This document shows, piece after piece, positions 57,205 through 62,947 of a DNA stretch of 64,000 nucleotides. The number at the start of each line of letters is the position of its first letter. Position 1 is the stretch's first letter. Source of the DNA: Chalara sp. BL73 (lineage: Eukaryota > Ascomycota > Leotiomycetes > Helotiales); contig CAKJVC010000210.1 of NCBI GenBank assembly GCA_918026815.1, positions 242,425-306,424 on the forward strand. The letters are read 5' to 3'. The translations under genes were made by a program, and so were the position numbers. The notes under the pieces were generated by a model. It did not search any database, was not told the origin of the DNA, and worked only from the letters and a program-made list of their open reading frames with translations.

Positions 57205-57722
57205 AGCTTAAAATGGCTGGTCTTCTTGGGCAGGTTGAGCAGTAAAGCGAGGATGAAGCGCCGCAAATGGACGTGCCCCAGGAGGATGTAGGAGCTCTAA
57301 GAAGGGAACCGTTGATTGAGAAGAGTAAAATGGGGGAAGGGGTTCTGGGCATCAACTACATAGCGTCTGGATTGGGTTTTGCTGCATACAAAAGCGTGGG
57401 GATATAGCGTTGGCGCATGGTGTTGGGATACCCCTTGGCGAACAGGATATAATCTGAAAATTTATCCGCAAAAAATGGCACATGCATCGTTCCCTTCGCT
57501 TCCTCTGTATCCCCTTCACGTCCATTCCAAACCGTTGTTTCCTTGAAAGACATGTCTCGCCCCTTCTTTGTCTCCCCCCGTCACAGGTCCCGCAACGATA
57601 CAACAGCGTCGTTATCTCCGAAACACCCATCCTTACAGCCGCCCGTCCGTTCACCACTTGCCAAAGCGGCGACCTGATATATCTACCCCGATTATCAACG
57701 CGCCAAACAAATTCTTCTATAT
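57205..57722. other. Interval between the secreted-protein gene and the split tRNA gene
   Basis: No gene is recognised. The frames 57352-57747 (minus) and 57482-57736 (plus) are unpatterned. The last 80 bases, rich in C and A, are the 5' flank of the tRNA gene; no obvious upstream promoter box is seen. Confidence 0.45.
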
Positions 57723-57732
57723 GGTCCTGTGG

Positions 57733-57783
57733 GTAAGTCTGCCCCATTCCATTTCAAAAGAGAAAGAGCTAACGAGTGCACAG
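57733..57783 (+). other. Spliceosomal-type intron 1 inside the tRNA gene
   Basis: 51 nt, GTAAGT donor, CTAAC branch point at 57769-57773, CACAG acceptor. It lies between tRNA positions 10 and 11. Its size and signals equal those of the mRNA introns in this window. Exon bases CTGTG (57727-57731) can pair with the intron's last five bases CACAG, so a helix across the junction is possible. Confidence 0.75.
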
Positions 57784-57792
57784 TCTAGTGGT

Positions 57793-57840
57793 GTAAGATC
57801 TCATGACTCTGTACTAAAAGAAAACGCTAATGGTATATAG
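57793..57840 (+). other. Spliceosomal-type intron 2 inside the tRNA gene
   Basis: 48 nt, GTAAGA donor, CTAAT branch point near 57827-57831, TATAG acceptor. It lies in the D loop, after the conserved G-G-T. GTCTA (57783-57787) can pair with TAGAC (57838-57842). Confidence 0.75.
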
Positions 57841-57922
57841 ACGATTCTTGCTTCGGGTGCTTCCCGGATATGTAAATATCCATGTGTGTGAGAGGTCGTG
57901 GGTTCAAACCCCACCAGGGCCC

Positions 57923-58260
57923 ATCCTTTTTTTGGTCTTTTTGCCTGTTGCTTGCGGTTATTTACTGTTCTATCGTGTTTCACGGAGGGCTGTGAGGAAA
58001 GAAGGTTGGGATGGAGAGGTGATGGTTGAGAAGAATCTGGGCTTGTGATTCCTTGTGGAAGGTCACGATGAGGGGCCTCTCGGCTCATGATTGTGTTGGC
58101 TGGCAGACGCTGGAAGTCCTCGATCGTTCACAGATTTAGGACCGGCTCCATGCATATTTCGGGTAATCCTCGGGTTGTATTGATGAGGTGTGTATCAAAG
58201 GCAACAACTTGAGAATACTTTATATATCATAACAGCACTTTAATACAGTGAACTCTCATC
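57923..58260. other. Interval between tRNA gene and F-box gene
   Basis: Apart from the T7 terminator I see no feature; it ends in the 3' flank of the F-box gene. Confidence 0.5.
57927..57933 (+). terminator. Pol III terminator of the tRNA gene
   Basis: Seven consecutive T begin four bases after the discriminator base, the usual place and form of a Pol III stop signal. It argues that the locus is still transcribed by Pol III. Confidence 0.8.
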
Positions 58261-59763
58261 TTAGTGCTCACGCGGTTCTGGCAGCACTTGGACCCTCTTC
58301 CCTATACCATTATGAGCGCATCTCTCAAAGTCCACTTCCTCATCCCAACCCCATCCCCTCTCATAGTAATAACCATATTCTCGAAGGGCCATCGCCCTCG
58401 CATTCAGCCCCTTCTCCTCTGCAACGCGTAGCACCCGGCCTACACGTTGTATCATCTCCTCGCCTTCAAACGGCCCTTCAAAAACTAGCTCGCGCAGCTG
58501 GGGGACGCATTCCTTCCGCTGCAGTAGCGTCTCAAATGCTGTGGCAATATGCGCGTGTTTGTCCCCGAATATGAACGCTGCGTTCGTGACGTAAAGGCTT
58601 TCCAATTGATGAGGTAATGCCTCGCACAGCCTGTTCTTCATCTTAATATCAGCAGGGGATCCGGGCTCAGGCGCACGCTGCAGATCCGCATCTCCGAAGA
58701 GGAAGACAGGGGCCACACGTAGCTGAGTGAGAGCCGCAAAGCTGGTGAAGGAGAGTGGGTATGGGTGGTCATCTGTGTCGAGGCTCTGTTGGAAGGGATA
58801 GTAGTAATCGTGGTCGAGGGCTAAGCGGCAGATGGAGGTGGCGTGGATTTCTAAGGAGGAGAGAATTTCGGGTGTCCGGACTGACGTCCGAGCCCAGCTG
58901 TTGCCGATGTGGTAAATAAGAGTGTGCGGAGATTTGAGGGCGCCGATAATGACGGCGAGGTCGTCGAGATGCAGTTTGGAGTCGCGGAGCTCCAGCGTTT
59001 CGATAAGGGACGTAGCCGGCCGGAGGTTTGAAAGTTCTAGCTGGGGACGGTCGTCTTCGGCTCCAAGGCGGTGCCCATAGAGTCGCTTTACAGCTGGGAA
59101 GTTGCTACATGCGGCAAAGAGGACATACGGCATTGGGTACTTGTCATCCATGCTGGCAAGCATGATATCAGTGAGCTGAGTAAACACCGGTTTACTGTCG
59201 AAAGGTGGCTCGCAATAGGCGATCCGATTAAAGACTCGCTCGAGGAACCCGACCTCGGAGTTGCCAATCTCAAAGTCCAGTCGACGTAGCTTCGGGAAAG
59301 AAATAAGAAGAAGAGCAAATATAGCATCGTCTCGCCGTCCATCGGAGGGCAAGACTTCCTGGAGCCATTCTGCCTCCTCTTGTTCTGAGCGCGAAATCTC
59401 TCCGACCACCCGCCTTAGAATATCGTCACGATCCGGGTGATCAGGCCAGGGCAATCGTGCCTCTTCGTCATCAGGGTCGAGTGAAGAGGGATATTCGTCA
59501 AGAAAACCGCCACGAAACGTGAAAGTTTTGACAAGAGACGCGATGTATGGGTTTTTTAGAATAAGAAACGTAAACGGAAGCAAGTACCTTGCTCCCCATT
59601 CCGATTCAGATTCTAGAAATACATTCTGGTAAAGATGGGGTATTGTTAGAGACTTAAATTTCGAAGATACTAGAGTAAGATGGAAGAGAGAGGAACGAGG
59701 CTCTACGAAGCTGATAACCCTCTCGAGCAACTCAAGAGGTAGTGAATCTAAGGGGAAAGGCAT
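58261..59763 (-). CDS. F-box protein
   Basis: A single exon of 500 residues. It opens with an F-box-like motif, L-D-S-L-P-L-E-L-L-E-R-V-I-S-F-V, then S-L-F-H-L-T-L-V-S-S-K-F-K-S-L-T-I-P-H-L-Y, the L-P-x-E-L pattern that recruits Skp1 in SCF ubiquitin ligases. The rest is leucine-rich and helical with irregular repeat-like stretches (L-S-S-L-E-I-H-A, L-T-Q-L-R-V-A-P, L-E-S-L-Y-V-T-N) and would be the substrate-binding region. The C-terminus is rich in aromatic and acidic residues (G-Y-Y-Y-E-R-G-W-G-W). Ascomycetes hold many such proteins with unknown targets. Confidence 0.85.
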   Translation of the reverse strand: MPFPLDSLPLELLERVISFVEPRSSLFHLTLVSSKFKSLTIPHLYQNVFLESESEWGARYLLPFTFLILKNPYIASLVKTFTFRGGFLDEYPSSLDPDDEEARLPWPDHPDRDDILRRVVGEISRSEQEEAEWLQEVLPSDGRRDDAIFALLLISFPKLRRLDFEIGNSEVGFLERVFNRIAYCEPPFDSKPVFTQLTDIMLASMDDKYPMPYVLFAACSNFPAVKRLYGHRLGAEDDRPQLELSNLRPATSLIETLELRDSKLHLDDLAVIIGALKSPHTLIYHIGNSWARTSVRTPEILSSLEIHATSICRLALDHDYYYPFQQSLDTDDHPYPLSFTSFAALTQLRVAPVFLFGDADLQRAPEPGSPADIKMKNRLCEALPHQLESLYVTNAAFIFGDKHAHIATAFETLLQRKECVPQLRELVFEGPFEGEEMIQRVGRVLRVAEEKGLNARAMALREYGYYYERGWGWDEEVDFERCAHNGIGKRVQVLPEPREH

Positions 59764-60375
59764 TTGGGATACTCAGAGAATGAACACAAAAGGAGATCTA
59801 TTGGGAATGGTTATGTCGAGGTTTTGGCTTGTGAGAAAATAGTGCTTGTGGCTACCTGGAATTCTAGGCAGCCATCGAGGGGCGTACAGTATCTGCCTCT
59901 AGAGGACATACAACTGTTTGCACCACCCCTCCCCCTCCCGATTTTAAATAAATGTTATACGGTTGGTTTTTTTTTTTAGTCAGGCTCTAGAAAGAGATAT
60001 TCTAAGTGGTCTATTTTTTGGGAGGCACGAGCTATAAAAAGGATTTCAACCCTTGCTACGAAACGGATATACAACCGGAATTGTAAAATCCTAGTAGAAA
60101 ACGCTTGGCTTTGTTCATTGTTTGCACTGTATAACCTTTAATTAGGGAGCGGAGAGATTTACATGGAGATCACAAGGCCTGCCCACATATCTGACTTGCA
60201 GCATCAAAGCGAAGTGGCGTTTCCTGGGCACGCTTAGATGCGCAGCCATTCTTGGTGTTGCTCATCCATGCTCCTCAAATCAATGATCAAAAAGATAATT
60301 GATGATCGACTTAAGGTCTCTTAATGCTAAACTCAAGCACACATTCATACCCAAAGCATTAGCATTTTCTTCGCT
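59764..60375. other. Intergenic region between divergent genes
   Basis: No coding content recognised. A T run (about ten) is near 59,970 and the DNA is AT-rich. Confidence 0.45.
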
Positions 60376-61275
60376 ATGATGGATGCATCAGAGCCTCCGC
60401 CCTATGTTCAGCAAAAAGGTGAGAAACGGTCGTAGACCTATGATTATTCACAAGCGGTTAGTTTTGCGGACATACTTTTGCACCTTTCGAATAAGCTACC
60501 AGTTCTACCACCACATATTTGCATCTTCTGAACAAGAATTCAATTCTGCCATCGTACCAGGCCTAAATGGTATATCGGGCAATAGATTTCCACCTGTGCA
60601 GCTAGCAGCCAGCTAAATATGCCGCCATCTATAAGATTGACGTGGTGATGAAGGCTTATCCGTCCTTTCAATGAGAGCTCTGCGAAGGGCGAAATGTTGT
60701 TTTTAACTTCATTCGATATTGCTCTTGCTAAACTTGTCTTGCTCGCATCTCTAGATTGTCTCAAAGGAGTTGAGAAACGTTGCATGTTCCTTGCCCCTCT
60801 GAGTAGACTTGATCTTACAATCAAATTGCCAAGAAGCTATGGTCACTAGAGCTGTCAACGCGTCCATTGGCGCTCCTATTCTCAGTATCTATGATCCTCT
60901 CCTGCGAACTTTGAACACCCAGATTTGTGAAACCTTCTAAGCACCTACTGATATCCAGCAGATCAAATAACATACCTGAAAAACATCCTAGATGTTGGAA
61001 AGAAATTCACTATTTACCTCGACGAGAAGAATCGTGATACAGTCACTGCCAAGGACATCGATATATGGAAGCTACCGATCAGGGTCACGGCGGAGAGATT
61101 TCTTGGACGAATTCCACATATATGCATATTCAATATGCCCGAGGCTGCGACGGCGGTCTTCAAGGTCCACAAGGAGAAGATGCACTTCAGAGTCATAAAA
61201 TGTATAAACAAGCATCTTTCCCCTATAGGCCTCAACTCTCCAGGTGTGTTTCTCTCCCATATATACATTTGGTAA
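60376..61275 (+). pseudogene. Decayed multi-exon gene of an unknown fungal family
   Basis: Three coding-like pieces lie in order on the plus strand. (1) 60376-60418 reads M-M-D-A-S-E-P-P-P-Y-V-Q-Q-K and ends at a good GTGAGA donor. (2) 60839-60940 reads M-V-T-R-A-V-N-A-S-I-G-A-P-I-L-S-I-Y-D-P, then stops. (3) 60952-61275 is open for 108 codons without a Met at the start: P-A-D-Q-I-T-Y-L-K-N-I-L-D-V-G-K-K-F, then a charged stretch, W-K-L-P-I-R-V-T-A-E-R-F-L-G-R and F-R-V-I-K-C-I-N-K-H-L. Piece 3 could end at GTGTGT near 61,244. The segments between have stops in the linking frames, so a broken gene is likelier than an intact one, though small introns could rescue some of it. The family is not recognised. 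Simple start-to-stop ORF search misses piece 3. Confidence 0.4.
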
Positions 61276-61969
61276 TCTAACTTTTTTACAATGACTGCCC
61301 TATCTTATACCCTTCCTGCTTGCGGCTTCTCGACTTTCCACTGTCACCCGATTGCCATACCAGTTGAGATTAGTATGCAAGTCATAAAATATGTAGCTAA
61401 TAACGCCTAGTTATCGCCATAACGCGAGAGAATCACTGTGCACAAAGCTCACCACCCAATAGCATCAGTATCAAGAACACTTAGTTCCATCTACCTCGAC
61501 CTTCGACAAGCTTGGGGGCCAGCTTAAGTACTCTGGCACCCCTCTCTATCACAAACGAAACATTTGATATACATGAGACGCTATTGATATTCTTAGCAGA
61601 AGTCCGGGCGTAGAGATGGATAGCTAATTTCGATCTGAGAGATAGGCTTAGGATAATTTATCGATAATAAAACTCGATCATGTCAGCTTTGGTAAGACTT
61701 TTGATGTTGCTGGCGTCTCTGAGCGACCGTCCAGCAAGGCCAATAGCCACAGGCTCTAGTGTAATAGGCTTTGTGATCGCATTGAGGAAGCAGGGACTCA
61801 TTCCTTAGAGTTGTCTTCGGACGTTGTGAGATGTCTTCGCTCTAGAGAAATGGGAACGCCTTAGTGTGAATGTCTCTCACTGTGAGAGAGACTATTTGCG
61901 AACAGTGAACCATATAATCAGCCAACAAACTAGCCCTGCCAGCCAATTACAAAAGCTAGCAAGTCCCAT
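61276..61969. other. Intergenic region, no gene recognised
   Basis: No frame with recognisable content. It may hold further remains of the decayed gene to the left; a palindrome-like CTCACTGTGAGAG lies near 61,877. Confidence 0.45.
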
Positions 61970-62947
61970 TTAGCTTCTAGCGACAGCAAATACAGGCTGG
62001 ACTTCAAAACTGCGGATATTGTCGCTGAGAATCTTCTCTCTAAGTCCTACAATAGCATCCGTTATGGACTTGTACCGGGCCTTGTCGCCAATCCACTTGC
62101 AGTCAAAGTCCCCACGATCGGCATTCCAAACAAACTCTCCTTCTCCCGTGCTCTCAATCCCCCACAATTGATGCGCCTTTATGTCGCTACCTACAAGCTG
62201 TATATTCGGCCGCACTTCGACGATAATGAACAGCGTTGTGATCCAGGAATAGTCCTCTAGTATGTAGATAAGCTCATCGGCGTACTTACTATGAAGCATT
62301 GCCTCTGGCATAGCGATACGAGTGACGTTTGGCCTAACATCAACACTGCGGTTAATCAGATCCGGCTCAGAGCGTCGATCGCTGGGCTCTTCCACGAAAT
62401 CACACCATTGGTCAACACCTATATACAGTACATCGCGCATCATGTCAAAACAGCGTACGAAGACTGGGTCTTGTTTCATACCGTGGCGACTAGATTCACC
62501 GTCCTTGATAACGAGGTTACCATCCGGACGAAGGTCAGAAGCTTGCTCGCGAATAGCTTCATTTTCAGTATTCTCGCGGATGCGCATCTTGATCTCATCA
62601 CCCTGTTCCTTGACCCAGGCTAGTGCAATCTCACGAGCCTCGTGGTTGACAAAGACCAGTGGTAGCTCAAACTGGACAGGTTCTACTAAGTCGGTGCAGA
62701 ACTCGAACCACAGATTAAGTTCCTCATCGTCATAGCCGTCTTCATGATAAAATCCTTCGTCGGACTTTGAGAGTTGCCGAGGGCACCAGCAGCCTCTTTT
62801 ATAAAAGTGCAAGGTAGGCCCAATTTTAGGCAGGGCTTCACGCCATATTTGGTCGCGTAGCTCTCCTGGGAGGCTCGAAAAGAATTGAAATGTTGACGGC
62901 CTGATTGCCTTGGTTGCCATGATCGTTGAATTTGAGGTGGCCGACAT
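61970..62947 (-). CDS. 2EXR domain protein
   Basis: A single exon of 325 residues. Residues ~20-45 read F-Q-F-F-S-S-L-P-G-E-L-R-D-Q-I-W-R-E-A-L-P, the opening of the 2EXR fold widespread in filamentous fungi, followed by L-P-L-V-F-V-N-H-E-A-R-E-I-A-L near residue 97, which gives the second E-x-R. The central part is acidic. Members are numerous in ascomycetes and their function is not established. An alternative start at residue 10 (M-A-T-K-A) is possible. No signal peptide. Confidence 0.85.
   Translation of the reverse strand: MSATSNSTIMATKAIRPSTFQFFSSLPGELRDQIWREALPKIGPTLHFYKRGCWCPRQLSKSDEGFYHEDGYDDEELNLWFEFCTDLVEPVQFELPLVFVNHEAREIALAWVKEQGDEIKMRIRENTENEAIREQASDLRPDGNLVIKDGESSRHGMKQDPVFVRCFDMMRDVLYIGVDQWCDFVEEPSDRRSEPDLINRSVDVRPNVTRIAMPEAMLHSKYADELIYILEDYSWITTLFIIVEVRPNIQLVGSDIKAHQLWGIESTGEGEFVWNADRGDFDCKWIGDKARYKSITDAIVGLREKILSDNIRSFEVQPVFAVARS

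Follow-up and report, generated by a model that had tools for sequence, protein, structure and literature searches.

A tRNA-Pro(CGG) gene broken by three inserts occupies positions 57723 to 57922 on the plus strand of the window, by which we mean the whole 64,000-nucleotide stretch of DNA that was analyzed. Two of the inserts have the ends and branch sites of spliceosomal introns, and the third lies at 37/38, the canonical site of eukaryotic tRNA introns. The features of the locus are as follows.

57677-57682, plus strand: TATA-like stretch ATATAT, 46 nt 5' of exon A, which may be an upstream element for Pol III
57723-57732, plus strand: exon A, tRNA-Pro positions 1-10, GGTCCTGTGG
57733-57783, plus strand: GT-AG intron 1, 51 nt, at 10/11; donor GTAAGT, branch CTAAC, acceptor CAG
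57781-57791, plus strand: A-box-like word cagTCTAGTGG, made of the intron 1 acceptor CAG and exon B; T8 is absent, judged against what we take to be the A-box consensus
57784-57792, plus strand: exon B, 9 nt, tRNA-Pro positions 11-20, TCTAGTGGT
57793-57840, plus strand: GT-AG intron 2, 48 nt, at 20/21; donor GTAAGA, branch CTAAT, acceptor TAG
57841-57922, plus strand: exon C, whole, including the third insert
57841-57857, plus strand: first part of exon C, positions 21-37, anticodon CGG
57858-57886, plus strand: canonical-site tRNA intron, 29 nt, at 37/38; its register slides by at most 2 nt
57887-57922, plus strand: second part of exon C, from position 38 to discriminator C73
57901-57911, plus strand: B box, GGTTCAAACCC
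57927-57933, plus strand: T7 run resembling a Pol III terminator

The original prediction described these exon pieces, the three inserts and the T7 run, and all are present as described. In both GT-AG inserts, a donor, a branch site and an acceptor are recognizable, as had been claimed, with the branch A located 11 nt (intron 1) and 10 nt (intron 2) from the intron end. Judged from the sequence, the second insert allows a single register, which is the GT-AG one, and the first allows two, one of which is GT-AG. When both strands of the window are considered, a strict motif of donor, CTRAY and acceptor was found at 14 distinct sites. Two of them adjoin each other, exactly at the tRNA junctions, which is more than chance would give. 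The proposed likeness to mRNA introns in length also holds: the inserts of 51 and 48 nt compare with spans of 45-62 nt for the strict-motif sites, and with the 70- and 46-nt mRNA introns that are most consistent with protein alignment of the CysRS gene in the window. Another protein of the window, TRM61, has 98% identity with a protein of Bisporella sp. PMI_857, Bisporella being a helotialean ascomycete.

Introns 1 and 2 are not at the canonical 37/38 site, and only the third insert is there. In a predicted fold, CCC in the third insert pairs with GGG of the anticodon loop, in line with the anticodon pairing originally proposed.

The window tRNA gene is detected by neither RF00005 nor ARAGORN: ARAGORN run without introns found no tRNA anywhere in the window, and an Rfam search of the window gave nothing above gathering scores. 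With introns allowed, ARAGORN made wrong Gly or Glu calls when none or one of the GT-AG inserts had been removed. When both had been removed, it returned the right 72-nt cloverleaf, labeled Thr(cgt) because the program picks a different register for the 37/38 intron. Removing the 29-nt intron at 37/38 as well gave tRNA-Pro(cgg), 72 nt, in three equivalent registers. Thus, the exons do join to a 72-nt tRNA-Pro(CGG), and the forecast that a tRNA finder would return it once the two inserts were out held for the cloverleaf; the Pro-CGG label required removal of the 37/38 intron too. Energy folding of the 72-nt product gave no clean cloverleaf and a stability that is not unusual (z -0.79), so the energy folds lend no support to a spliced tRNA-Pro product.

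Interrupted tRNA genes in the genome assembly

The survey target was the same assembly (58.66 Mb in 199 contigs), in which the window lies in contig C187. An RF00005 profile search yielded 63 scored matches from 2453 first-look candidates. The D-arm word TGGTCTAGTGGT, with one mismatch allowed, occurs at 226 places, of which 30 were fetched among the 100 listed. Two B-box-plus-T4 patterns, which required T runs, gave 86 and 60 rows; the rows resembling tRNA 3' ends were fetched, as 40 stretches. BLAST searches with spliced or typed tRNAs were also part of the survey. ARAGORN isotype labels are unreliable for intron-bearing genes, and some were re-read by eye; tRNA position numbers were assigned manually. 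The nuclear count excludes contigs C115, C188, C189 and C192, which are putatively organellar, and seven tRNA-like or B-box loci (L058, L059, L060, L107, L110, L118 and L124) lie outside it.

In this incomplete survey, 84 loci could be read as nuclear tRNA genes, of which 63 are uninterrupted or have a 37/38 intron only (17 + 20 + 14 + 9 + 3) and 21 carry GT-AG inserts. The 21 comprise 20 loci with a total of 24 GT-AG introns and a near-identical copy of the window locus on contig C51. What had been presented as a single odd gene is instead part of a genome-wide pattern that extends to Pro, Lys, Leu, Gln, Arg, Ser, Ala and initiator Met tRNAs. The interrupted loci are listed here by anticodon.

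Pro-CGG: the window gene; its C51 copy; L126, with introns at 10/11 and 33/34
Pro-TGG: L113
Pro-AGG: L136 (G000:C143:64300-65170), with three GT-AG introns of 54, 175 and 55 nt and a 37/38 intron, four in all
Lys-TTT: L054
Lys-CTT: L055, L056, L057 and L131
Leu-TAA: L104
Leu-CAA: L111
Gln-TTG: L091 and L092
Arg-TCT: L117
Arg-CCG: L102
Ser-TGA: L122
Ser-CGA: L123
Ala-CGC: L127 and L128
Initiator Met: L135

All but one of the 18 spliced models were recognized as tRNAs by ARAGORN, and the remaining one (Pro-AGG L136) was too, once its upstream exons had been located. A cloverleaf, conserved bases and a readable anticodon are present in the spliced tRNAs, including that of the window gene. Counting other Pro-CGG genes, as the original prediction advised, turned up one other distinct gene, L126 on contig C75. 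It has two GT-AG introns, one of them at the same 10/11 site as intron 1 of the window gene.

At least 5,586 bp around the window gene (window 57252-62835) recur on C51 (L035, G000:C51:356500-366499) with no mismatch, seven gap openings and a different left flank. The interrupted arrangement was therefore assembled twice, and the repeat is either a recent duplication or an assembly duplicate. More generally, the assembly may lack genes or hold duplicated contigs. The incomplete survey found no nuclear genes for Asn, Phe, Tyr, Ile-TAT, Ser-GCT, Thr-TGT, Thr-CGT or Val-TAC, and its searches found for Asp only a degenerate Asp-like copy (L059). BLAST with ten typed tRNAs for absent isotypes recovered only initiator Met, and an anticodon-arm pattern for Asn, Phe and Tyr had one match, on the putatively organellar C188. 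The isotypes absent from the survey may be interrupted too, or may simply have been missed. Among the tRNA-like loci, L103 (G000:C62:908700-909050), labeled Glu(ctc) by ARAGORN, has a 64-nt insert, the ends of which form a 9-bp inverted repeat, GCTCTCCGC...GCGGAGAGC.

Signals and boundaries of the introns

The 24 introns compared here leave out the C51 copy. All 24 have GT at the start and AG at the end, a rule that was used in placing them; 23 have G at donor position 5, and 23 have C or T before the AG. They are 46-78 nt long (median of all 24, 53 nt), except for one of 175 nt, which is intron 2 of Pro-AGG L136. The branch site played no part in placing the introns. A CTRAY motif with its A 7-20 nt from the 3' end occurs in 20 of the 24, as compared with 8.2% of shuffles; for all but two of the 20, this distance is 10-12 nt. 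The motif is absent in the other four introns. In size and donor, the tRNA introns resemble mRNA introns (median 53 nt versus the 70 and 46 nt of CysRS, a small mRNA sample).

Boundaries were also placed by alignment to paralogues alone, with no splice rule, in nine comparisons. A GT-AG register was allowed in eight, which are all that resolved. For Lys-TTT, Pro-TGG, Ser-TGA, Lys-CTT L056 and L057, and initiator Met, between two and four registers were allowed, one of them GT-AG in each case; the Ser and initiator Met comparisons include one mismatch to the paralogue. The two Gln-TTG genes gave a unique register, which is GT-AG, relative to comparators that were typed joins, contiguous in the sister copy. 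The comparison with Lys-CTT L131 did not resolve because of that gene's 9-nt canonical-site intron. In Leu-CAA L111, the choice of acceptor is ambiguous by 4 nt. Random insert boundaries had been named as a mark of dead copies; the paralogues show exact GT-AG boundaries instead.

Like genes with canonical eukaryotic introns, the window gene has a 37/38 intron that pairs with the anticodon loop, whereas its two inserts with GT-AG ends and branch signals are positioned at 10/11 (intron 1) and 20/21 (intron 2). It might be proposed that the tRNA splicing endonuclease cuts these introns too and that their GT-AG ends are incidental. Non-canonical introns in the D, anticodon and T arms are described for a Cyanidioschyzon merolae nuclear tRNA gene, and the same two sources report several introns per gene in these arms in C. 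merolae, nucleomorphs and archaea, as is likewise observed here (PMC9602550, PMC4090602). The introns of those organisms are ascribed to the tRNA endonuclease and are without mRNA-type signals, in contrast to the GT-AG ends of 24 of 24 introns and the CTRAY motif of 20 in the present set. Constant GT/AG ends, a donor consensus and branch sites are unexpected for the endonuclease class, and no bulge-helix-bulge was seen by eye in one minimum-energy fold. We regard this explanation as extremely unlikely.

The introns do not appear to be a shared mobile family, since BLAST among the 24 detected similarity only within the four Lys-CTT copies. The GT-AG introns of Ala-CGC L127 and L128 are offset by a single nucleotide (20/21 versus 21/22), and Ser-TGA L122 and Ser-CGA L123 have a common 30/31 site occupied by unrelated intron sequences. 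Scattered sites, unrelated introns and uninterrupted paralogues suggest that introns were repeatedly gained, or precisely lost, in this lineage.

Conservation of the spliced tRNAs and uninterrupted copies

The original prediction took the paired stems as a sign of selection on the spliced product, and the pairing across introns is indeed kept. In 16 spliced tRNAs, the two acceptor strands flanking the introns are complementary at 111 of 112 positions, by many pair types, as compared with a mean of 63 and a maximum of 85 in 2000 partner shuffles; the test is partly circular, because 5' strands were partly recognized by their pairing. The one unpaired position is a T-T mismatch in Arg-CCG L102. 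Conserved tRNA bases are present in 175 of 176 checks, the miss being A14 in Ser-TGA L122.

The Lys-CTT genes (L055, L056, L057, L131 and L010, on contigs C57, C62, C122, C169 and C141) permit a closer comparison. The first four have a T-loop intron that splits the B box. L056 and L057 are identical over 73 exon positions and differ at 11 of 50 intron positions. In L131, a single exon base has changed and the intron has diverged further, and the last exon of L055 is without one C. The uninterrupted L010 matches them in its exons, and its flanks look similar by eye, so that it provides a precise presence/absence case.

When 13 spliced tRNAs were used as BLAST queries, Lys-TTT, Lys-CTT and Pro-TGG each proved to have full-length copies that are uninterrupted. 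Further uninterrupted genes are Pro-AGG L061, Ser-TGA L121, Leu-CAA L105 and initiator Met L132-134. The same BLAST search found no uninterrupted copy for seven anticodons, namely, Pro-CGG, Gln-TTG, Leu-TAA, Arg-TCT, Arg-CCG, Ser-CGA and Ala-CGC, a non-match that is not proof of absence.

These data bear on whether the interrupted copies are dead tRNA genes that were hit by introns, with the cell using uninterrupted genes. For Lys-TTT, Lys-CTT, Pro-TGG, Pro-AGG, Ser-TGA, Leu-CAA and initiator Met, uninterrupted paralogues exist that the cell could use, and L102, L122 and L055 show flaws; these three may be decaying copies. Also, a tRNA-intron review relates that eukaryotic tRNA genes with D- or T-arm insertions are regarded as pseudogenes, the insertions mostly being confined to a single gene among many synonymous ones (PMC4090602). 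Against this, exon pairing and conserved bases are kept, the Lys-CTT introns drift and the exons do not, and seven anticodons are left with no uninterrupted copy found by BLAST. The pseudogene reading is weakened by this pattern of exon conservation, pairing across introns and missing uninterrupted copies, and we consider it very unlikely. Two options were raised originally: joint processing by spliceosome and endonuclease, or a gene that was recently broken. The former is favored by the lack of an uninterrupted Pro-CGG match and by the interruption of 21 of 84 loci.

Proposed transcription and maturation, and relation to known systems

To our knowledge, the spliceosome is not known to act on tRNAs. 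GT-AG introns in tRNA genes imply that the spliceosome is likely needed to make these tRNAs, and maturation of the tRNA-Pro(CGG) precursor into a functional tRNA very probably involves the spliceosome together with the tRNA splicing endonuclease. Pol III would transcribe the window locus through to the T7 run, given that a B box and this run are present; the AG of intron 1 would re-form most of the A box; the major spliceosome would take out introns 1 and 2; the Sen endonuclease would cut out the 37/38 intron, with subsequent ligation; and the product would presumably be used in translation.

The promoter poses a difficulty for this scheme. Introns interrupt the A box of many copies, as well as the B box of Lys-CTT, and this should hinder Pol III. 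In the window gene, the A box is not intact in the DNA, being split by intron 1, and the acceptor CAG gives back R9 and G10 of the A box, not T8. The acceptor CAG of L126 also gives back R9 and G10, and in L054 and L136 the acceptor AG gives back R9, with T8 missing in all three; these readings of the four genes use an A-box consensus that we presume to apply. Among interrupted genes, 13 of 19 have TATA or ATAT at -55 to -25, as do 23 of 30 among the uninterrupted ones; these counts come from an AT-rich region and have no background control.

Split A or B boxes would be accommodated if the introns were spliceosomal and each locus were read, without Pol III, as part of a longer Pol II transcript, with the tRNA being trimmed out later. 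Spliceosomal splicing is normally coupled to Pol II, which also favors such an arrangement. Against it are the T runs 3' of the window gene and of the copies found by B-box patterns (the latter runs not being independent, because the search patterns required them), and upstream TATA-like elements like those of uninterrupted tRNA genes. We judge it to be highly improbable. Introns are known in U6 genes, and in some fungi these are of the mRNA type. Such U6 introns are, like those proposed here, spliceosomal introns in a Pol III transcript. U6 differs in being part of the spliceosome, and in the present genome it is the tRNAs that host introns: six U6 matches over the cut-off span 97-110 nt and ten 5S matches over the cut-off span 120-122 nt, with no sign of introns in either.

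Short spliceosomal introns in structural RNA genes outside Pol II are likewise found in lichen rDNA, and yeast takes a lichen spliceosomal intron out of Pol I rRNA (PMC8527467). The present introns differ from those of lichens in that their hosts are tRNA genes, with exons down to 9 nt and internal promoters. Eukaryotic tRNA genes are said to be limited to one intron in the tRNAscan-SE 2.0 paper (PMC8450103). The tRNA-intron review names nucleomorphs and a red alga as carriers of non-canonical eukaryotic introns, and the word element spliceosom- is absent from its main text (PMC4090602). PMC11782384 and the reference list of PMC4494063 contributed nothing on the question. A search of the open-licence PMC literature, judged by titles, abstracts and the passages cited here, turned up no account of nuclear tRNA genes with spliceosomal introns; an earlier account may exist elsewhere. 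Structural RNA genes are already known to carry such introns, whereas tRNA genes are not known as their hosts.

If spliced products are confirmed, the spliceosome acts on tRNA precursors with exons down to 9 nt, and the system would directly probe the extent to which splicing requires exon definition, capping and Pol II. Intron gain would also be visible in a gene class in which boundaries are readable from structure and paralogues. We consider it fairly probable that the spliceosome is obligatory for tRNA-making in this lineage, that decoding of UUA, CAA and AGA depends on tRNAs for which only intron-bearing genes were detected, that translation capacity is wired to splicing, and that intron gain continually targets tRNA genes. 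Under standard wobble rules, these codons need the Leu-TAA, Gln-TTG and Arg-TCT tRNAs. UUA, CAA and AGA are used 9, 25 and 13 times, respectively, in the 1470 codons of three long window ORFs, two of which were taken from stop to stop. Because tRNA finders miss genes such as those described here, tRNAs that are "missing" elsewhere may hide a similar arrangement.
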